From assembly GCA_017430985.1 (NCBI GenBank), contig JAFRLZ010000034.1:1-42529 (forward strand): a stretch of 42,529 nucleotides of DNA, written 5' to 3'. The notes under the pieces were generated by a model that worked only from the letters and a program-made list of their open reading frames with translations, was not told the origin of the DNA and did no database searches. Of the stretch, positions 2,388 to 40,751 are shown one piece after another. The DNA comes from Oscillospiraceae bacterium (lineage in GTDB: Bacteria > Bacillota > Clostridia > Oscillospirales > Oscillospiraceae). The position numbers and the translations under genes are program-made. Within the stretch, counting starts at the first letter, position 1, and each line of letters starts with the position of its first letter.

Positions 2388-3017
2388 TCAGGCCTTGACC
2401 TTGCGGCTCTTGGTGAAGAAGTAGCCGGCGGCGATCGCGAAGACCGCGGCGGCGACGACGAAGCCGATGGAGACGGTCTCGCCGGTCTGCGCGGAGGTGG
2501 CGGGCTCGGCGGCGACGATGATCGCGTAGGCGCCCAGCTCGTCGATGGAGTAGCTCAGCTCGTTGTCCTTGACCTCGGCGTCGACCCAGGTCCACTCGCC
2601 GTCAACATAGTGGAGCAGCGCGACGAAATCGTCCAGGAACTCGTCCTTCATGACGATGCCGACAGGGAAGCTGACTTCCTGGGTGGCGCTGATGTCGAAC
2701 AGGTCGCTCGCGGCGACGCTCTTGTCGCCGGCGGCTTCCTTCAGCTCAGCGTTGACGCCGGCCAGCTCGGGAGCCTTCCGCAGAGAATCGAAGGCCTTCT
2801 CAAGGTTCTCCTTCTTGCTGTCGTCCAGCTTCTCGCGGTCGATGTACGGGGTGATGACGATGATGCCGCTGGCGTCGTTGCCGTTGGCGTCCTTCGCGGA
2901 GGAGAGTTCGGGCGCGCCGGCGTTGGCGACGCTGTTGATGAAGTTGTCGGCAAAAGCCGCGGCGGAGAGGCTGACCAGAAGCATGACGGCCAGCAGGAAT
3001 GCAAAGATCTTTTTCAT
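2388..3017 (-). CDS. Small surface protein with QTGE-type C-terminal sorting signal
   Basis: The 209-residue protein has a signal peptide (KK, then a hydrophobic run ending AAAFA), about 150 residues of acidic mixed sequence, and a C-terminal sorting signal: SAQTGE, a hydrophobic helix of about 20 residues, then KSRKVKA. This is the layout of a sortase substrate, with a QTG-type motif in place of LPXTG. The next gene upstream is a class B sortase, which makes it the likely substrate. The middle recalls small clostridial wall-anchored proteins of unknown role. The start at 3017 is chosen because AAAGGA lies upstream; the frame extends to a TTG at 3035 that overlaps that site. Confidence 0.85.
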   Translation of the reverse strand: MKKIFAFLLAVMLLVSLSAAAFADNFINSVANAGAPELSSAKDANGNDASGIIVITPYIDREKLDDSKKENLEKAFDSLRKAPELAGVNAELKEAAGDKSVAASDLFDISATQEVSFPVGIVMKDEFLDDFVALLHYVDGEWTWVDAEVKDNELSYSIDELGAYAIIVAAEPATSAQTGETVSIGFVVAAAVFAIAAGYFFTKSRKVKA

Positions 3018-3059
3018 GGTGTTTCGTCCTTTCAAAAAAGTAATAACAAAATCTATATG

Positions 3060-3836
3060 TCAGCTGATCTCATAGATCAGCCTGGCAACAACGATGAAGC
3101 GCTGGAGTTCGTCTGCGATCAGGCAGGTGGAGAGCACCAGCAGGTGGTCATCCTCCGTGATCTCCGTGGAATTGTCATAGATTCTTGCGAAGGAGTGGAC
3201 CTCCGAGACGCGCTCTGCGAAGGCCGGGATGTCACTGGCATCGACGAAGCGGCGGTAGTAGTTCAGGATATGCAGGTCGCTGAAGGGCGTTGCCGCGAAA
3301 ACCTGAAAATGCAGCTCCCGCGTCGGCGTATAGACGATGATCTCGTCCAGATTGCGCAGGCTCTCCCATGAGGCGTAGAGCTTTTCCAGCTGACCGAACA
3401 TCTCGCCGGAACGCATCCTGTGCCCGTAGATCACCGTTACGGGATCGGCAAACAGTGTATCGTTGTAAAGGTACTCTGTGAACAGGCAGCCGTTTTCGTC
3501 GACCTGACGGTCCACGCTGTGGACCAGATAATAGTCGTTGTCTCCCCGAACGCTCTGCAGGACCGGGTGATTGATCTCCGTTCCCGGGATATAGATCCAC
3601 GCGTAGATGTCCTCGTTGAGGGCCTTCAGCGCTTCAAAGTCGATCGGGCTGACATACTCTTCCGGGATCTCCGCCTCCTCGTCGTGCAGCAGCGTCACCG
3701 ATTGCTCGGCGATCGCCTCCGTTGACTCGCGCACCAGCGCGGGACTCCTCGGCGAAGAAGCAGGCAGGCTTTTCACAATACAGAACGCACATGCCACGAG
3801 GCAGGCGATCCCGGCTGCGAAGTAACCCCTTCTCAT
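3060..3836 (-). CDS. Class B sortase
   Basis: Sortases are membrane cysteine transpeptidases that cut a C-terminal sorting motif and join the protein to the wall or to another protein. The 258-residue product has an N-terminal signal anchor (about residues 5-23) and a sortase barrel with the expected residues: His139 in VIYGHRMRSG, Cys238 in LVLSTC and Arg246 in RFIVVAR. The insertion between the His and Cys strands and the overall length fit class B. It lies between the CpsB phosphatase (7-base gap) and a protein with a QTGE sorting signal, so both are probably expressed with the capsule genes. The start has a GGAAAG-rich site upstream. Confidence 0.93.
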   Translation of the reverse strand: MRRGYFAAGIACLVACAFCIVKSLPASSPRSPALVRESTEAIAEQSVTLLHDEEAEIPEEYVSPIDFEALKALNEDIYAWIYIPGTEINHPVLQSVRGDNDYYLVHSVDRQVDENGCLFTEYLYNDTLFADPVTVIYGHRMRSGEMFGQLEKLYASWESLRNLDEIIVYTPTRELHFQVFAATPFSDLHILNYYRRFVDASDIPAFAERVSEVHSFARIYDNSTEITEDDHLLVLSTCLIADELQRFIVVARLIYEIS

Positions 3837-16595: not shown

Positions 16596-16626
16596 AAAAG
16601 ACCGGGCTCGCGAGAGCCCGGTCTTT
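16596..16626 (-). terminator. Terminator of the HMA-ArsR unit
   Basis: AAAGACCGGGCTC and GAGCCCGGTCTTT form a stem with a GCGA loop. It directly abuts the ArsR stop at 16626, and a minus-strand T-tract follows (CTTTTTGCGC). Confidence 0.93.
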
Positions 16627-16940
16627 CACTCCAAAATGTGGTCCATGCCCTGGCCGATGATGGTGCGCACATGCTCGTCGGCGAGCGAGTAGAACACGCT
16701 CTTGCCCTGCCGGCGGCTCTTGATCAGCTTGCTGCGCTTGAGGATGTTCAGCTGGTGGGAGATCGCCGACTGGGTCATGTTCAGCGCGGCCGCCAGATCG
16801 CAGACGCAGAGCTCCGCCTCAAAGAGCACGAAGAGGATGCGGATGCGCGTGCTGTCTCCGAAGACCTTGAACAGCTCCGCCAGGTCCATCAGCTGCTCCT
16901 CATGCAGCCTCACGCTTTCGCAGCATTCGTTTTTGTCCAT
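16626..16940 (-). CDS. CadC/SmtB-type ArsR family metal-sensing repressor
   Basis: The repressor leaves its operator when it binds metal ions. The 104-residue winged-helix protein carries residues of both classical metal sites: Cys-Cys near the N-terminus (NECCES) with ELCVCDL in helix 3 (the Cd/Pb/Zn thiolate site of CadC), and D-x-H-x10-H-x2-E in the last helix (DEHVRTIIGQGMDHILE; the helix-5 Zn site of SmtB/CzrA). TQSAISHQLNILKRSKLI is the recognition helix. The start at 16940 has GGGGAG upstream; the frame runs further back without such a site. It is cotranscribed with the HMA protein from a promoter overlapped by a matching operator. Confidence 0.93.
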   Translation of the reverse strand: MDKNECCESVRLHEEQLMDLAELFKVFGDSTRIRILFVLFEAELCVCDLAAALNMTQSAISHQLNILKRSKLIKSRRQGKSVFYSLADEHVRTIIGQGMDHILE

Positions 16941-16960
16941 ACCGTCTCCCCGCCCTTTGC

Positions 16961-17179
16961 TCAGAGATAGATCTCGCAGTCGTCCTCGACCTTTTTGCAG
17001 TTTTTCAGCACCTGCTGCATGACCGCCTTGGGATCGGCGCCCTCGGCGAATTCCACGCTCATCTTCAGCGTCATGAAATTGACGACGGCGTCCTTCACGC
17101 CCTCCGTCTTTTTGGCCGCCTGCTCCATCTTGTCGGCGCAGTTGGCGCAGTCCACTTCGATCTTGTAGCTCTTTTTCAC
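16961..17179 (-). CDS. Stand-alone heavy-metal-associated (HMA) domain protein
   Basis: The 72-residue protein is a single ferredoxin-like HMA domain with the metal-binding pair in VDCANCADKM (residues 10-17). The layout resembles the N-terminal domain of Cd/Zn P-type ATPases or a CopZ-like chaperone, with extra cysteines late in the chain (NCKK, DDCE). The start is a GTG at 17179 with AGGAGG 8 bases upstream; the nearby ATG at 17187 runs into a stop within three codons. In many clostridia the domain and an ArsR gene precede a cadA/zntA pump, but here the unit ends in a terminator and no pump follows. Confidence 0.9.
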   Translation of the reverse strand: MKKSYKIEVDCANCADKMEQAAKKTEGVKDAVVNFMTLKMSVEFAEGADPKAVMQQVLKNCKKVEDDCEIYL

Positions 17180-17198
17180 GGTCGCATCCTCCTATCAT

Positions 17199-17543: not shown

Positions 17544-19007
17544 TCACGGCCGGCCCGTGAACAGGTCCCGCAGCCATTGGATCAGGCTGTATTTGACGGT
17601 GACGGTGCAGCTGTCGCGGCCGTAGCCGTCCTCCGTCTGCACGGTGATGAGCGCCGTGCCCTTCCCGACCGCGCGCACCAGACCGTTTTCGTCCACCGTG
17701 GCCACAGTCGGCGCGTTGCTGCTCCAGTGCAGCGCGCGGCCGGTGGCGTCTTCCGGCAGCACCTCGGCGTTCAGCTGCAGGCTCTCGTCATAGTACAGCT
17801 CGAGCTTCCGTCGGTCGAGGCGGCAGCTGTCGACCCGGATCAGCGCCGGGAGCGGCCGCTCGTCGAGCAGCTGGTCGCAGACCGAGCAGCGCAGCTGCTC
17901 CTGTCCTTCGCTGTTCACCGTCGGCTGGATGCTAACCTGCCAGTCGCCGGGGATGTGGCAGGGCGGCGTGTAGCTGTCCACCCAGCTGTAGCCGCAGTTG
18001 CGGCAGGTGTGGCGGGTATAGCCCCAGGTCGTGCAGCCGGAGGGCGTCACCTCGTCGAGATGGTCCGGGACCGCGCATGTCTCCGGCGCGAGCACCGTGC
18101 TGTAATCCTTCGTCTCGCGGCGCTCAAAGTCGTTCCGGTTGCCGAGATAGCGGTAGGGCATCTGCAGATGCTCGCCGAAGGTCGCCGCGCAGTAGGCGCG
18201 CCGGTCGGGGTTGTCCTCGAAGAAGCTGATGAAGCCGCTGATGTAGTTGTTGGCCATGGACTCCGGCGTAAAGCTCATGCCGCAGTGGTAGTACATGCCC
18301 ACGAGCCCGCCGTTGTGCACATAGCCGTGGCAGGAGTCGTAGCCGCGGATCGCCACCGTGTTGCGGTCGATGTTGGCCAGGCCGCAGGCCAGGATGCCGC
18401 CCATGAACTCCTCGCAGCGGCTGTTGAAGTTGCGGTCCTCGAAGAAGAGCTCCACGTCCGCGCTGCAGTCGTACACGCTGCCGCAGCCGTAGCCCGCGAT
18501 GCCGCCGACGCCGACCATGACGCCGGTGCTGACCATGCGGATCTGTCCGTCGACCGAGCAGCGGATGATGCTGCTGTGGTCGATGTATCCGGCCAGGCCC
18601 GCCGCAAAGCAGTGCTTCGACACCTCGACGTCCACCAGCACGCCCTTGAGATGCAGGTCGGTGATCTGCGCGTCCTCCACCGTGGAGAAAAGCCCGGCGA
18701 AGACCGTGTCGTAGGCTTTGAGGTTGCCGTCCTTCGTCGTGCGCACCTCCGAGCCGTAATCGGTGACGGTGAGGTTATAGAGCGTGTAGCCGCCGCCGTC
18801 GAGCTGCCCCTTGAAGGGGATGGGCGTCCAGACGACGCCGCTCATGTCGATATCCGCCTCCAGGCGGAATGCGCCCCAGGGGTTGCTGCGGATGGCGAAC
18901 ATCCCCTCCGCGTCGCGGATCGGCGTCACGCTCGGTTCGGCCGCGGCCGCCGCGCACAGCGGCCAGAGCAGCAGCAGGATCAGCAGAACGGATAAGACTC
19001 GCTTCAT
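17544..19007 (-). CDS. Secreted GLUG-repeat protein with CxxC motif region and C-terminal Ig-like (Big2) domain
   Basis: The 487-residue protein has a signal peptide (KRVLSVLLILLLLWPLCAAAAA). A beta-solenoid region of about 70-230 follows with GLUG-type turns (FAGLFSTVEDAQ, AAGLAGYIDHSS, VGGIAGYGCGS, MGGILACG, NGGLVGMY). Next are a Cys-rich stretch (CTTWGYTRHTCRNCGYSW, about 320-345, and CSVCDQLL) of a kind seen in clostridial secreted proteins, and a bacterial Ig-like group 2 domain at about 400-475 (LHWSSNAPTVATVDENGLV). No sorting signal or C-terminal helix is present, so it is probably released or loosely held. The start at 19007 has GGAG 8 bases upstream. Confidence 0.85.
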   Translation of the reverse strand: MKRVLSVLLILLLLWPLCAAAAAEPSVTPIRDAEGMFAIRSNPWGAFRLEADIDMSGVVWTPIPFKGQLDGGGYTLYNLTVTDYGSEVRTTKDGNLKAYDTVFAGLFSTVEDAQITDLHLKGVLVDVEVSKHCFAAGLAGYIDHSSIIRCSVDGQIRMVSTGVMVGVGGIAGYGCGSVYDCSADVELFFEDRNFNSRCEEFMGGILACGLANIDRNTVAIRGYDSCHGYVHNGGLVGMYYHCGMSFTPESMANNYISGFISFFEDNPDRRAYCAATFGEHLQMPYRYLGNRNDFERRETKDYSTVLAPETCAVPDHLDEVTPSGCTTWGYTRHTCRNCGYSWVDSYTPPCHIPGDWQVSIQPTVNSEGQEQLRCSVCDQLLDERPLPALIRVDSCRLDRRKLELYYDESLQLNAEVLPEDATGRALHWSSNAPTVATVDENGLVRAVGKGTALITVQTEDGYGRDSCTVTVKYSLIQWLRDLFTGRP

Positions 19008-19184: not shown

Positions 19185-19601
19185 TCATAACTCGATGATC
19201 TCGCCCTCGTCCTCGCCGGGCTGCGGCGTGGGCGCTGGGCTCTGATCGGCGGGAGGGTCGGCCGGCGGGTCCGCGGGCGGATCAGCCGACGGGTCGGCCG
19301 GAACTTCCGCCGTGGGCTGAGCGGGCGGCTGGGCCGGCGGCTGCGAGGCCGCGGGCGCGGCGGGTTTCGCCGTCTCCGTCGGGGCTGTCGGAAGCTCCAT
19401 CAGGACCTCCTCGTCCGTCTCCGCCGGAGTTTCCTCCGGCGCGGGCACGGTCGTTTCCTCCGGCGCGGTCGTCTCGACCGGGAGCGGCGTCTCCGCAGGC
19501 GCGTCCGACTCTGCCGGGGTCCGGAGGCGCAGCAGCACCACGGCCGCCAGCGCCGCCAGGACCAGGAGGCCAATCAGAAGCGGAATGGTTTTCTTTTTCA
19601 T
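19185..19601 (-). CDS. Pro/Ala/Thr/Glu-rich membrane-anchored protein
   Basis: The 138-residue product has KKK, one hydrophobic helix (about residues 5-24), and then an extended low-complexity segment of Pro, Ala, Thr and Glu. It includes repeated PAETP/PEET units and later PADPPADPPADP repeats, ending in the acidic EDEGEIIEL. It looks like a wall-spanning stalk with the N-terminus in the membrane. No enzyme domain is seen. It follows the 35-residue peptide gene by 5 bases; a GTG at 19610, overlapping that stop as GTGA, is an alternative start. It is the third gene of the giant-protein operon. Confidence 0.75.
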   Translation of the reverse strand: MKKKTIPLLIGLLVLAALAAVVLLRLRTPAESDAPAETPLPVETTAPEETTVPAPEETPAETDEEVLMELPTAPTETAKPAAPAASQPPAQPPAQPTAEVPADPSADPPADPPADPPADQSPAPTPQPGEDEGEIIEL

Positions 19602-19606
19602 GTGCT

Positions 19607-19714
19607 TCACGGCGTGGGAATGTCGATCGGCTCACCCTCGTTGGAGTCGGTGATGACGTCCTCGACGGCGAAGCGGATCAGCTCGATCCGCAGATCTTCA
19701 TACGCTTCTTTCAT
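19607..19714 (-). CDS. 35-residue peptide coupled to the giant LRR protein
   Basis: The ATG overlaps the stop codon of the 2219-residue protein (GGATGA), and the stop overlaps a GTG of the next gene (GTGA), so it is embedded in a coupled operon. The peptide begins MKEAYEDLRIELIRFAVEDV and continues with ITDSNEGEPIDIPTP. It is strongly acidic with no signal peptide. I recall similar clostridial peptides of about 35-50 residues sharing a pattern like E-x3-F-x-x-EDVIT-x-S followed by a Gly/Pro-rich tail near secreted proteins, but cannot verify this. Function is unknown; a leader-plus-core precursor or a small regulator are both possible. Confidence 0.6.
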   Translation of the reverse strand: MKEAYEDLRIELIRFAVEDVITDSNEGEPIDIPTP

Positions 19715-22700
19715 CCCGGCCAAACCTCCCCGAAATTGATATTCGCAGCCTTTGCGTACAGATACAGGGCTTTGCCCAGCTCCTCGTGGCCGGGCCTCGT
19801 GCCGTACCTGGCCAGGAGCTGCGCGTAGCTCAGCGCGCTGGCCGTGACGGTATAGGTCTTTTCACCGTCCGTGACGGCGAAGGTATGCGCGTCGTCGAGC
19901 TTCTTCGCGGCGATGCCGGTCACGGTGAGATAGTACCGGCCGCCGCTCTGCCGCAGCTCGGCGGGCGACCCGTCGATGGTGTAGCTGTAGTCGCCGGGCT
20001 GCCTGCCGCTGCTCGCGTCGAAGACGAAGTAGACGCGGATGGAGTTGTCGGTCTCGAACATGACGGACATCTGCGCCTTCGTAATGCCGGTCGGCAGCTC
20101 GCCCCCGATCTGAGCGGCGAAAACGTCCAGCATCTCGTAGGTCACGGCGTTCACGGCGGCGCTCGTCGCGCTGCTGCCGGTGCCGAAGTAGCTCACCGCC
20201 GCGGCGCCGTAATCATCGAGGGCGGCCGCGAGGGCGCGCATCTCCGGCGTGGAGCCGCTGACCTCCATGGTCTCGGCATAGTCGTTGAGCGAGAAGGGGA
20301 AGCCCGCGGCCGTGCAGTCCTCGCCGCCGGCGCTGAGCGCCGCGGGCGTGCCGTCGGCGTGGAAGACGCGCAGGCGGATCTCGCTCTCGAAGAAGCGCGG
20401 CAGCACGCTGTAGTAGAAGCAGGTGCAGGCCTCATCTTTATAGGTCCCGGCCACGCCGTCGGACACGAGGCTGCGGCCCAGCTCGTTCCCCGCCGTGTCG
20501 AAGAAGCCGAGGTAGGCTCCCTCTTCCGCCGCGAGGCTCGCGGGCACGTTGGCGTAGTACTTGAGCTTCGGCACGTCGTCGAAGACGAGGCTCAGGGCGC
20601 GCAGGACCGTGCACTCGCCCACGTTCTCCACGCCGGTGACGCTGATCTCGGTCTGATCCTCGGCGCTGACCGCGAAGTAGATGACCTCGCCCTCGTTCCC
20701 CTCGCCGTTCTGGACGCCGGGGACGGGCGGCTCGGTCGTCCATTCGAGCGCCTGGGCGTTCCCGCTGCCGAGCCAGATGCCGAAGCCGCTGCCGCGGCAG
20801 TAGCCCACGCCGATGGTGAAGGAGAACCAGACGCAGCCGTGGTCGTAGATCAGGAAATAGCCGCGGCCGTCGCCGTTGTCGTAGCTCTGCGCGTGCGCCG
20901 CGTCGAGCTCGAGGATCTCGCCCTCGTCCTCGAAAGCCGCGGGGGCGATGGTGTAGCCGTCGGCGCCGCTGAGCGCGGCGAGGTCGACGAAGGCCTTGTA
21001 GCTGATGTCGATGACGAGGCGGTTGTTCGCCGCGTCCAGATAGGGCTGGCTGTAGACGCCGTTGCCGGCGAGCTCCGCGGCGCTCTCCTCATAGTGGAAG
21101 CAGGCCGCGTCCGCAGCGGTGAGCTGGTGCTCGACCTCGAAGTTCCAGCGGTTGCCCTGCGCCACGAGCCTGTCGGCCGCGTTGCAGACCGTGATCGAGC
21201 TGCCCTCGGTCAGCGCGCTTTCGACCCAGAGCTCGATATCCTCGGTCTCGGCGCCGCTGAAGAGATCGACCTTGCCGATCCGGACCAGGCCGCCCAGGGA
21301 GTAGATGCCGCCGAAGAGGTCGATGATGTTGTCCTCGACGCGGCAGTCTATCAGCACGCAGTCAGACACCTCCAGGCGTACACCGGTGCCGTTGCCGGTG
21401 ATGACGCAGTCGTTCAGGCGCATCGGGCCGCTGGTGATCCACTCCGACAGATCGGCTGCCAGGCCGACAGCGATATCGGTGTTCGTGATGCGGCAGTGGT
21501 CGAGCACGCAGGGCTCCGTGCTCACGCTGGCGACGCCGTCGCCGCAGTTGTCGATGACGACATTTCTGAGCGTCGCCGCGCTGCGCTCGCTCACCCAGAC
21601 GGCGCGGCCGCCCTCGAAGCCCGTGATGCTCAGGTTTTCCAGCGTTAGCGGCTGCTCGTAGGCGCCCGTGCGGCCGTCGTGGACGGCGTTTTGCGCGCCG
21701 CCGCCGATGAGGTCGACGCCGTTGACGCGGAGCGAGCCGTTTTCGTCACCGCCCAGAATGAACAGGCCATAGTCGCCGCTCGTAAAGGTGATGGAACTGC
21801 TCTCCGCGCCGGGCGCGGGGCAGATCTCGACCGCGCCGCCCGTGATGGTCAGCGCCCCATCGAGCGTCACATCCCCGTCTACATAGACGAGGAAGGGATC
21901 CTGCGGCGCGTTGCTGCCGACGACGCGGACCTCGCCGTAGCTCTCGTCCTCCTGCAGGGTGAGGTTGGCCGCTGTATCCCGCTGCAGGACGACGACGTTA
22001 TACTCGATAACGATCTCCTCACCCTGGCCGTCGTACCCCATGCGCTCGCGTGTCTCCAGCGCAAGCAAGGCGGATTCGAGGCCGCCGGTCGTTTCGGCCG
22101 CGCTGGGTTCATAAATCAAACAATCCACATCAGATTGAGATATCTGATAGGAATAGACCTCGTTCATCCCATCCCAGGGAGGCACGGCAACGAGTTCGTC
22201 GCTGCAGTTCGTCAGCGAGACGGGGCCGCTGAGCGGGCCGTCGATCATCAGCTCAATGTAGCGGGAACTCGCGCCGGAGCCGCCGCTGCGGTTCGTAAGG
22301 TCGATCGGGCCGATCTGCGGCGCGCCGCTGATGTGCAGTGTGATGGAGACGGTGCCGAAGTCGTTGGTGTTTTCCTGCACGACGCCGCCCTCAAGGTAGA
22401 GATCGCCGATAACCGGATAACAGCCGCTGTCGAAGGCGACGCCATTGTTTTCGATCGTGCCGCTCAGGAGCGTGCAGCTCCCTTCCTCCCAGTGGAGGGC
22501 GGTAGAGCAGCCGCTGACCGTCGCGCCGTCGACCAGGATGTCCGCGCTTTCGTGGGCCTGGACGCCGTAACGACAGCCGGACAGGGCGCTGCCGCCCGTG
22601 AGGGTGAAGGTGCACATACTGAATTCGCCTGTGCTCGCCAGAGCGTTGCCGAGGGCGCTGCTGATCGACGTGCCGTCGAGCGTGACGCTCTCGGCGTTGT

Positions 22701-38792: not shown

Positions 38793-39569
38793 TCAGTAGG
38801 GCAGGCCGAAGTAATTGGGTGCCTTAAAGAAGGCCCGCGTTTTCACTTCAAGGATGAGCTTCATGTTGCCGCCCTTGTTGCCGAGAACATCGTAGGAATT
38901 CCAAACCGAGCTCCGATAGCTCTCCGTGTGAGCCTTCGTCGCCAAAAAGCCGGATCTTTCGGTTTTCAGGCTGATGATCGCATGGATCGGGAGGATGAAG
39001 GTGTTGACCGACAAGTAGGGGACAACATCAGCTTTGTCGCCGAGGCGGCAGGTTTTGCCCTCCTGCAGGCCGGCGGAGATGAGCGGAGACCCAAAGGTGA
39101 CCGTGTTGAGGATGTTATAATTGGACTTAAGCTTCGAGCTGGCCGCGAGCTGCTGAGCAACCATGCCGCCGAGACTGTGGCCTGCAATAATCAAGTTGGA
39201 ACCCTTCGGAACAGCATTCAAAACCGCAGCGGAAGCACTGTCAAGAAGGGGGTTCGTGAGGTTAAGGCCGACCATGATATCTGTCAGAACATTCGTGGCT
39301 TGATAAGCGACATTGTCAGTTCCGGAGAGCGTTACCAGATAGACGGTTTTTTTGCTCAAGCCATACTTATCCTGAAGCGTAGCCCTGGTAATCATGATCG
39401 GTCCTTTCGAACCGCCGTTGTAGCCCTGGCAAACATAGTTGTAGAGATCGGGAGCATTCGCCAAAGTTTGTGTTGTGGAAGCCGCGAACGCGGTGACGCC
39501 GCCGGCCAAGGTGGCGATGATCAGGACGATGGCCAGCAGCTTGGTCGTAAGCCTAAGCGTTTTCTTCAT
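38793..39569 (-). CDS. Secreted class 3 lipase-like alpha/beta hydrolase, paralogue 1
   Basis: The 258-residue protein has a signal peptide (KKTLRLTTKLLAIVLIIATLAGGVTAFA) and an alpha/beta hydrolase core. The nucleophile elbow is IIAGHSLGGMVAQQLA (Ser132); Asp181 in KADVVPYLS and His214 in KAHTESY are good candidates to complete the triad, and all three are conserved in the neighbour. The order and GHSLGG motif fit class 3 lipases, though fatty ester specificity cannot be confirmed. AAGGGG precedes the ATG. It has its own promoter and terminator and shares the GLPY C-terminus with its paralogue. Confidence 0.88.
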   Translation of the reverse strand: MKKTLRLTTKLLAIVLIIATLAGGVTAFAASTTQTLANAPDLYNYVCQGYNGGSKGPIMITRATLQDKYGLSKKTVYLVTLSGTDNVAYQATNVLTDIMVGLNLTNPLLDSASAAVLNAVPKGSNLIIAGHSLGGMVAQQLAASSKLKSNYNILNTVTFGSPLISAGLQEGKTCRLGDKADVVPYLSVNTFILPIHAIISLKTERSGFLATKAHTESYRSSVWNSYDVLGNKGGNMKLILEVKTRAFFKAPNYFGLPY

Positions 39570-39859: not shown

Positions 39860-40666
39860 TCAGTAAGGCAGGCCAAGGTAGCAGGGGGCATAGTAGAACT
39901 GCTCGGTGTTCAGCTTGAGTTCGATCACCTTTTTGCCGTTCTTGTAGCCAAGAACGTCATAATCTTTAAAAAGATCCGTTCCGTAGGCCTCGCAGTGCGC
40001 TCTCGTGCGCTCGCTGATCGAGGTGCCGTAGCCGCCGCCGCTGACTCTGTTCAGGCCGGCCAGGGCACGGATCGGGGTAATGAGCGTGTTGGTGGAGAGG
40101 TAGGGAACATAGTCCAGCTCATGGCCGAGGCGCTGGATGCTGCCCTCACGGAAGCCGGCCGCGATCAGCGGAGAGCCGAAAGTAACCGTATTGAGGATCT
40201 TATATCTGGCTCTGAGTACTGGGTTCGCTGCAAGCTGCTGCGCGACCATGCCGCCGAGGCTGTGTCCGGCAAGAACGATGTTGGCATTTTTCGGGACACG
40301 GCCCATAATCGCAGCGGTAGCTCTGTCAAAGTAGTCGTTCGGGAGATTGGTACCAACCTTCAGGCAAGTCAAAAGATTGGTGGCCTGGTACTTGACATCG
40401 ATCTGCAGGCCGGCAAACGTAACCAAGTAGATGGACTTCTTGCCAATGTTGTTATTCTTGTTCTTCAGCGTGCCTTCCGTGATGATGATGGGGCCCTTTC
40501 CCCCTTCACTGCGGTAGCCCTGATGCAGATAGTTATACAATTCCGGAGCATTGTCCAGTCTTGCATCCGTCCATTTTGCCGCAAACGCAACGGTGCCGCT
40601 GATCAGAGTGGCGATGATCAGGACGACGGCCAGCAGCTTGGTGGTGAACTTCAAAGTTTTCTTCAC
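39860..40666 (-). CDS. Secreted class 3 lipase-like alpha/beta hydrolase, paralogue 2
   Basis: The 268-residue protein is a clear paralogue of its neighbour. It shares the signal peptide (KKTLKFTTKLLAVVLIIATLISG), NAPELYNYLHQGY, the nucleophile elbow VLAGHSLGGMVAQQLA, LDYVPYLS (Asp), RAHCEAYG (His), KDYDVLGYKNG and the GLPY end. It differs mainly by short insertions in the N-terminal half and before the His segment. The start is probably the GTG at 40666, with GAGGAG 9 bases before it and alignment with the paralogue's ATG; the ATG at 40672 is too close to that site. Its own promoter and terminator make it an independent unit. Confidence 0.88.
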   Translation of the reverse strand: MKKTLKFTTKLLAVVLIIATLISGTVAFAAKWTDARLDNAPELYNYLHQGYRSEGGKGPIIITEGTLKNKNNNIGKKSIYLVTFAGLQIDVKYQATNLLTCLKVGTNLPNDYFDRATAAIMGRVPKNANIVLAGHSLGGMVAQQLAANPVLRARYKILNTVTFGSPLIAAGFREGSIQRLGHELDYVPYLSTNTLITPIRALAGLNRVSGGGYGTSISERTRAHCEAYGTDLFKDYDVLGYKNGKKVIELKLNTEQFYYAPCYLGLPY

Positions 40667-40751
40667 TATCATACTCTCCTCGTCTTCAATACTTATCCCC
40701 GGTTCTCGTCACTCTCGCGTGACCCGTGGCCGCAGGATAGCTAGTATAGTC

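Follow-up and report, generated by a model that had tools for sequence, protein, structure and literature searches.

We confirm as a real gene, above chance, a 35-codon open reading frame that lies between the genes for a 2219-residue secreted protein (the giant) and a Pro/Ala-rich membrane protein (the stalk) in a 42,529-nt stretch of an Oscillospiraceae genome (the window). Judged from sequence comparison, the likeliest role of its product is that of a leader-type precursor with maturation in trans. We consider it probable that the peptide belongs to a RiPP-like pathway in which residues 1-21 would serve as leader, an HprK-like kinase would act on the precursor, an S26-type protein would remove the leader and an ABC transporter would export the core. 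A sequence-only reading of the window had offered precursor, assembly factor and regulator as possible roles; the first fits the data best, the other two less well. The HprK/PqqD/S26/ABC machinery, a lasso-type leader and a tail common to adjoining stalk proteins are findings beyond that reading.

The window gene and the EDVIT family

Coordinates and translations (Table 1) agree with the sequence-only reading that the frame sits between a 2219-residue surface protein and a Pro-rich membrane protein, that its ATG lies in the stop of the giant (ATGA; giant 26370-19711, minus) and that the peptide, MKEAYEDLRIELIRFAVEDVITDSNEGEPIDIPTP, is acidic (10 D/E versus 3 K/R). The peptide's own stop had been placed over a GTG of the next gene. 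An in-frame GTG is indeed present there (GTGA; ORF 19610-19185, 141 aa), but that gene could equally begin at ATG 19601 (138 aa, MKKK..), and the overlap may therefore not be functional. In the giant, a beta-helix region accompanies BspA-type LRR_5 repeats (PF13306, E 1.3e-101), and the C-terminal domain is common to other peptide-adjacent surface proteins. While its LRR_5 repeats liken the giant to BspA-type LRR surface proteins, the peptide and the stalk set the unit apart from them, as Pfam holds no family for either.

Table 1. Features of the window in and around the 35-codon gene
Feature	Coordinates	Strand	Basis or remarks
35-aa precursor-like peptide (EDVIT family)	19607..19714	minus	ATG..TGA, paralogs, profile, logo
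Ribosome-binding-like GGGGAGG	19725..19731	minus	10 nt 5' of the peptide ATG, within the giant's final codons
Secreted giant, 2219 aa	19711..26370	minus	ATG 26370; signal-like N-terminus, LRR_5, beta-helix, C-terminal domain
Pro/Ala-rich stalk	19185..19601	minus	N-terminal membrane segment, low-complexity linker, C-terminal tail GEDEGEIIEL
Secreted protein with Big_2 (Ig-like) domain	17544..19007	minus	next same-strand gene; membership in the unit uncertain
Predicted leader, residues 1-21	19652..19714	minus	logo of 164 distinct members and lasso numbering (PMC10368454)
Predicted core TDSNEGEPIDIPTP and stop	19607..19651	minus	S24 = +3 in lasso numbering
Tail motif NEGEPIDIP	19616..19642	minus	likeness to the C-termini of stalks that follow congener giants; first among 175 peptide tails

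Other minus-strand genes of the window include a separate wall-anchoring pair (3060-3836 and 2388-3035), one member being a sortase-domain protein (PF04203, 7e-13) and the other a small protein whose match to the LPXTG anchor is marginal (PF00746, 5e-4). Tandem secreted lipase-like alpha/beta-hydrolase paralogs are encoded at 38793-39569 and 39860-40672 (Lipase_3, 1.1e-5 and 2.6e-5), and at 16626-17198 the frame of an ArsR-family regulator is overlapped by that of a small heavy-metal-associated (HMA) protein (16961-17179).

With the single peptide as query, five paralogs were found in the same genome (E 6.6e-6, 6.2e-4, 0.0018, 0.024 and 0.39) on contigs C36, C38, C20 and C61, the last holding two. 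All six copies align on a single motif with common E, F, DV, T and S columns and differing ends; their E-values against the 17-member profile given next are better than with the single query, that profile itself including them. A profile of the six copies matched in 12 of 150 genomes of the taxonomic family and a 17-member profile in 69 of 295 genomes of the order (own genome included in both counts). The profile search of order genomes with neighbours recorded, which the sequence-only reading had suggested, thus finds the frame recurring.

The constant part of the family reads YxxPx[MLI]E[IV][IV]xFxxED[VI]ITxS and is followed by variable tails. In a logo built from 164 distinct members, after 171 of 175 peptides had satisfied the anchor, Y stands at 87%, followed by P at Y+3 (65%), M/I/L at Y+5, E at Y+6 (87%), F at Y+10 (81%), D at Y+14 (96%), V/I at Y+15 (98%), I at Y+16 (75%), T at Y+17 (75%) and S at Y+19 (93%), and at the two positions after that no residue exceeds 31%. 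The matching residues of the window peptide are Y5, L8 (Pro in most members), I10, E11, F15, D19, V20 and I21. Leu or Met replaces this Pro in all six own-genome copies, the machinery-adjacent one included. A conserved leader-like part and a variable putative core, as in RiPP precursors, are both present, and within a single genome the cores vary from paralog to paralog. In the logo, the tail tests, the covariation analysis and the motif counts, duplicates of a tail or protein entered only once; 100 of the locus contexts were hand-picked from profile and kinase matches, a few of them for a nearby kinase.

Summed over 19 non-overlapping related pairs, pN was 0.116 versus pS 0.512, which points to purifying selection, although choosing pairs with a protein identity of 70% or more biases pN downwards and some of the pairs are paralogs within one genome. 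One pair (L171) gave dN 0.10 and dS 0.09. The sequence-only reading would have abandoned the gene had the frame lacked conservation or the substitution ratio been near neutral. Neither was the case at the family level, but a search for orthologs of the window peptide for dN/dS returned no close one; the closest giant C-termini, nine in number, reach 37-41% identity and have no adjoining peptide.

Genes of the putative maturation pathway

The paralog on contig C38 lies directly upstream of genes for an HprK-like P-loop protein, a PqqD-type RRE (PF05402, 2.3e-11), an S26-like protein and an ABC exporter. Similar gene orders occur elsewhere, with the kinase at locus L012, with PqqD, S26 and ABC at L014 (no kinase was seen there) and with kinase and PqqD at L019, L052 and L062. 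Since the own genome has one kinase match and one RRE match, both on C38 and thus on another contig than the window, the window copy, if used, would be served in trans. The linkage of recognition and modification genes to a precursor, typical of RiPPs, is therefore found for the window copy only elsewhere in its genome.

Peptide and kinase co-occur strongly. Among 295 genomes, 63 have both, 6 the peptide alone, 23 the kinase alone and 203 neither (P-value 1.9e-37, a statistic that ignores phylogeny); the kinase is found in 63/69 peptide genomes versus 23/226 others. A table restricted to a single genus, which limits the effect of phylogeny, gave 16, 3, 2 and 40 genomes in the same order (P-value 6.4e-10), that is, a full-type kinase in 16/19 peptide genomes versus 2/42 others, where full-type means a best E < 1e-60, a threshold chosen after the scores were known. 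With any kinase match the single-genus table became 17, 2, 10 and 32 (P-value 2e-6). No peptide was detected in 23 of the 86 kinase genomes, and 4 of the 69 peptide genomes had neither kinase nor RRE. In the best 80 of 583 confirmed kinase loci, a same-strand PqqD was present in 64, S26 in 57, an ABC protein in 38 and the peptide in 32; on either strand the peptide was seen in 34 of these 80 at the threshold used.

The components are assigned with unequal strength. The only PDB match of the RRE/PqqD profile at E <= 0.01 is TbiB1 (2.8e-5), a lasso RRE. SMxP, HR and GD motifs are invariant in 24 S26 proteins, the first supplying the catalytic Ser motif of S26, and these proteins match signal peptidase I and SEC11 (PDB 4nv4, 0.003; 7p2p, 0.0049), while every NCBIfam score is below cut-off and Pfam gives no match. 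The putative kinase is the weakest assignment of the machinery: it scores under every curated cut-off, and its best PDB match, PEPCK, is weak (E 0.02).

Further genes accompany some of these loci, as judged by BLAST clusters in the best 80 kinase loci and by a scan of 145 neighbour genes from at most 59 kinase loci (3 of 148 genes were left out). An NTP_transf_5 nucleotidyltransferase (PF14907) is found in 14 of the 80 loci and among 12 of the 145 genes; a search of the own genome gave none. Five of the 80 loci contain radical-SAM genes, and Pfam Radical_SAM matches 7 of the 145 genes. The best NCBIfam match of the one member scanned is to a radical-SAM/SPASM RiPP maturase, at 143.6 bits where the cut-off is 525. 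All four radical-SAM loci with a detected peptide have cores with at least two Cys, versus 0/30 other peptide loci (P-value 2e-5), and such pairing of putative Cys cores with a radical-SAM enzyme is the pattern of RiPP precursors. No radical-SAM gene was seen beside the C38 machinery.

Two individual loci deserve mention. In Faecalibacterium prausnitzii APC923/51-1 (L249, 5914-8795), a kinase and a radical-SAM-cluster gene accompany two EDVIT peptides whose cores differ; one core contains four Cys. Four tandem peptide copies stand directly before a kinase in a MAG labelled Synergistaceae (L247, 715-1336), a label that may be wrong.

In the pathway that we propose, the window peptide would be co-translated with the giant, and its residues 1-21 would be bound as a leader by the PqqD-type RRE. 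The HprK-like kinase may act close to the boundary of leader and core, with the near-invariant Ser24 (+3 in lasso numbering) as its likeliest target, after which a SipW/Sec11-like S26 protein would remove the leader and an MsbA-like ABC exporter would secrete the core. The window peptide would thus be an orphan precursor, made together with the giant and matured by the enzymes of C38.

Peptide tails, anchored stalks and upstream genes

At some loci, peptide tails resemble the C-termini of adjoining stalks. Among the matches listed are EGDNGTGWG in both proteins (L105) and the pairs NMTDKG/NMTEKG (L178), EDYNPSKPYETPEDTLD/EDYDPNAPLILPEDVL (L190), ELPFVPAE/ELPFVPAF (L250) and IELPIIPV/IELPIITV (L097). 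For 35 peptide-stalk pairs drawn from 175 peptides, the mean tail score was 20.5 versus 13.9 (sd 0.72) and was reached in 0/1000 shuffles; the stalk rule (anchored N-terminus, low-complexity linker) had been set after the first examples, and the test was thus not blind. Individually, 8 of the 35 pairs lie above the 95% null and 6 above the 99% null, and 27 are not above 95%. The window's own pair (NEGEPIDIP / EDEGEIIEL) scores 22, under its 95% limit of 24. A stronger check comes from nine congener stalks (L293-L301), found independently of the peptide, which follow homologous giants with no adjoining peptide and end in SEGEAFMIG, NEGEVIPIQ, NEAEPLAF and similar sequences. Against these tails the window peptide ranks first of 175 (24.9; mean 12.4, sd 2.25, next 18.8).

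The likeness extends in weaker form to the comparison with every next gene (mean 12.9 versus 10.86, 0/500 shuffles; 3/58 pairs above the 99% null), and for the tails of upstream genes (97 pairs) the mean of 10.9 versus 10.16 is within the shuffled range (largest shuffle 11.0). A C-terminal LPx[VILQM][PT] motif, chosen after the stalks were inspected, is present in 16/97 stalk-like genes versus 1/1005 other genes, and in 7/175 peptides versus 44/13272 other small ORFs. The correlation of stalk tails with the giant's C-terminal domain was rho 0.17 overall (31/2000 permutations) and 0.06 (529/2000) once L293-L301 were removed. Since the tails do not follow the domain outside the congener set, docking of the tail onto it is offered as a hypothesis only.

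Shared tails would also suit an assembly factor, that is, an unmodified peptide whose tail copies the docking tip of the stalk and acts as a placeholder or competitor for the giant in export or anchoring, with the leader-like part merely folding against a partner. Congener giants followed by stalks with similar tails and no adjoining peptide agree with such a role. However, it leaves unexplained both the lasso-type leader likeness of the constant half and the peptide's tracking of kinase and RRE, and the missing link between stalk tails and the giant's C-terminal domain outside one family weighs against it as well. We therefore judge it unlikely.

A matured precursor, our preferred reading, could make use of the same likeness: its core is similar to the C-terminal end of the stalk (membrane- or lipid-anchored) that such operons encode, and core and stalk tip may share a surface partner. 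Extended to the whole family, this leads to a picture that we advance tentatively and hold to be improbable as a whole, namely a widespread clostridial RiPP-like class serving surface-protein assembly, not antibiosis. In this picture, a linear core bearing a phosphate would imitate the end of a stalk anchored to wall, membrane or lipid, with C-terminal tips such as ELPFVP, DGDIxLPEVP and NEGExI. It would leave the cell in step with each giant adhesin and compete for, or pre-occupy, the partner of the stalk, which would decide between retention and release of the giant, and a single set of enzymes would serve many orphan precursors of the genome.

The peptides mostly follow genes for secreted proteins. 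We located 109 peptides in 103 of 105 loci, and 95 of them have a called same-strand gene ending at most 300 bp upstream. By our own hydropathy rules, which were used for signal-sequence and stalk calls instead of a published predictor, complete upstream genes have a signal-like start in 50/66 cases versus 93/314 other genes; the median length is 763 aa versus 321 aa. The statement in the sequence-only reading that clostridial peptides with an EDVITxS core recur beside secreted proteins is thereby upheld, for a conserved family whose tail varies. An ORF-based count gives 97 of the 109 peptides a complete upstream ORF; as only 31 of these ORFs carry the giant's C-terminal domain, the peptide associates with secreted proteins of several C-terminal types, not one. 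The gaps behind these 31 are -17, -4, twenty-eight of 3-39 nt and one of 167, so the strict translational locking that the sequence-only reading saw in the window, with an overlap in 2/31 cases, is not supported as a conserved trait.

The ATGA overlap, the ribosome-binding-like site inside the giant's final codons and the short gaps in most copies behind giants could reflect a regulatory or leader ORF, whose translation would couple the giant to the stalk and whose product would have no role. Amino-acid conservation across families, low pN/pS and the position of the peptide before kinase genes in other genomes make this very unlikely.

Comparison with lasso peptides and other known systems

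Lasso leaders carry YxxPxL at -17 to -12, and in bsf, a kinase-containing lasso system, Ile stands at -2 and the kinase phosphorylates Ser3, with the RRE speeding phosphorylation (PMC10368454). When the Tyr of the EDVIT family is set at -17, V/I (98%) falls at -2, Thr follows at +1, and position +3 is taken by the near-invariant Ser. By analogy, the window peptide is predicted to be cleaved after DVI (I21) and to carry a phosphate on Ser24. The family keeps the spacing of a YxxPxL-type leader, with the Pro in only 65% of members and in none of the six own-genome copies. According to the same paper (PMC10368454), replacing Y(-17), P(-14) and L(-12) jointly with Ala leaves phosphorylation in bsf in place and only partly reduces cleavage; hence the YxxPxL match is no proof of RRE dependence.

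Asn_synthase gave a single match in the own genome (81% complete); it spans 36 of 354 positions, scores 21.8 bits against a cut-off of 21 and is on contig C87, outside the kinase locus. No cyclase-sized match was found in this genome, nor any match to the transglutaminase-type B2 family (Transglut_core3, PF13471). Both families are outside the 25 most matched in the neighbour-gene scan, each with at most 2 of the 145 genes from at most 59 kinase loci. Because the own genome gave neither a cyclase-sized nor a B2 match, we do not claim membership of the lasso peptides. Lasso cores have Gly, Ala, Ser or Cys at position 1 and Asp or Glu at positions 7-9; position +1 of the predicted EDVIT core, as placed by the inferred cleavage site, is Thr in 75%.

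A true lasso-peptide precursor would explain the YxxPxL-like leader, the closeness of PqqD to the lasso RRE TbiB1, the HprK-like kinase, the ABC exporter and the PF14907 nucleotidyltransferase of some loci. It would, however, need a cyclase acting in trans that the own genome, as far as it is complete, did not yield, and the scarcity of both enzyme families beside the kinases and the predicted Thr at +1 also count against it, leaving it extremely improbable. That the ORF is spurious, as its shortness and the want of any Pfam or NCBIfam family at E 1 or better might suggest, is refuted at the family level by paralogs, family-wide profile matches and purifying selection in relatives, and we give it practically no credence.

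Phosphorylated lasso systems with an HprK-type kinase include paeninodin, pseudomycoidin and bsf of Bradymonas (PMC8498205 and PMC10368454). They share with the EDVIT loci a YxxPxL-like leader, a discrete PqqD RRE, an HprK-like kinase, an ABC exporter and, in many cases, a nucleotidyltransferase; bsf also agrees in its residues at -2 (Ile/Val) and +3 (Ser) (PMC10368454). Parts of the EDVIT machinery appear related to these systems (PMC8498205 and PMC7533575). Unlike them, the own genome has an S26-type protein in place of a cyclase-sized or B2 match and several orphan precursors, some EDVIT precursors lie behind surface-protein genes, and tails are common to peptides and stalks.

An HprK-related kinase together with a PqqD-type chaperone is also known from the NCBIfam systems HPr-rel-A and SynChlorMet (ScmC), and TIGR04352, TIGR04353 and TIGR04249 are among the best NCBIfam matches of the EDVIT-linked machinery. 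All of these matches are nevertheless below cut-offs (TIGR04352, 16.2 of 200 bits; TIGR04353, 22 of 35). With the radical-SAM/SPASM RiPP systems (TIGR04463 relatives) the family shares such a gene in 5 of the best 80 kinase loci, with Cys-rich cores in 4, but most EDVIT kinase loci have no such gene. A search of the open-access literature found no cyclase-free set combined with S26, orphan precursors behind surface proteins and tail sharing, and no relevant description of the LPFVP tail motif or the EDVIT motif letters; the papers returned dealt with lasso peptides, other RiPPs or unrelated topics.

If the precursor reading is true, nearly a quarter of the sampled order genomes (69/295) carry precursors of a maturation system that is related to phosphorylated lasso peptides and makes no lasso. 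Pfam has no model for the window peptide, and none of four peptides scanned reached the cut-off of an NCBIfam model. Among the best 80 of 583 kinase loci, kinase and peptide occur together in Faecalibacterium prausnitzii and in several MAGs with the label Ruminococcus. Many precursors lie behind large surface proteins and some have stalk-like tails, which would then tie peptide modification to gut-bacterial surface architecture.

The genus of the own genome also holds longer members of 128 and 162 aa (L281 and L283), in which an EDVIT-like start is followed by a far longer tail.
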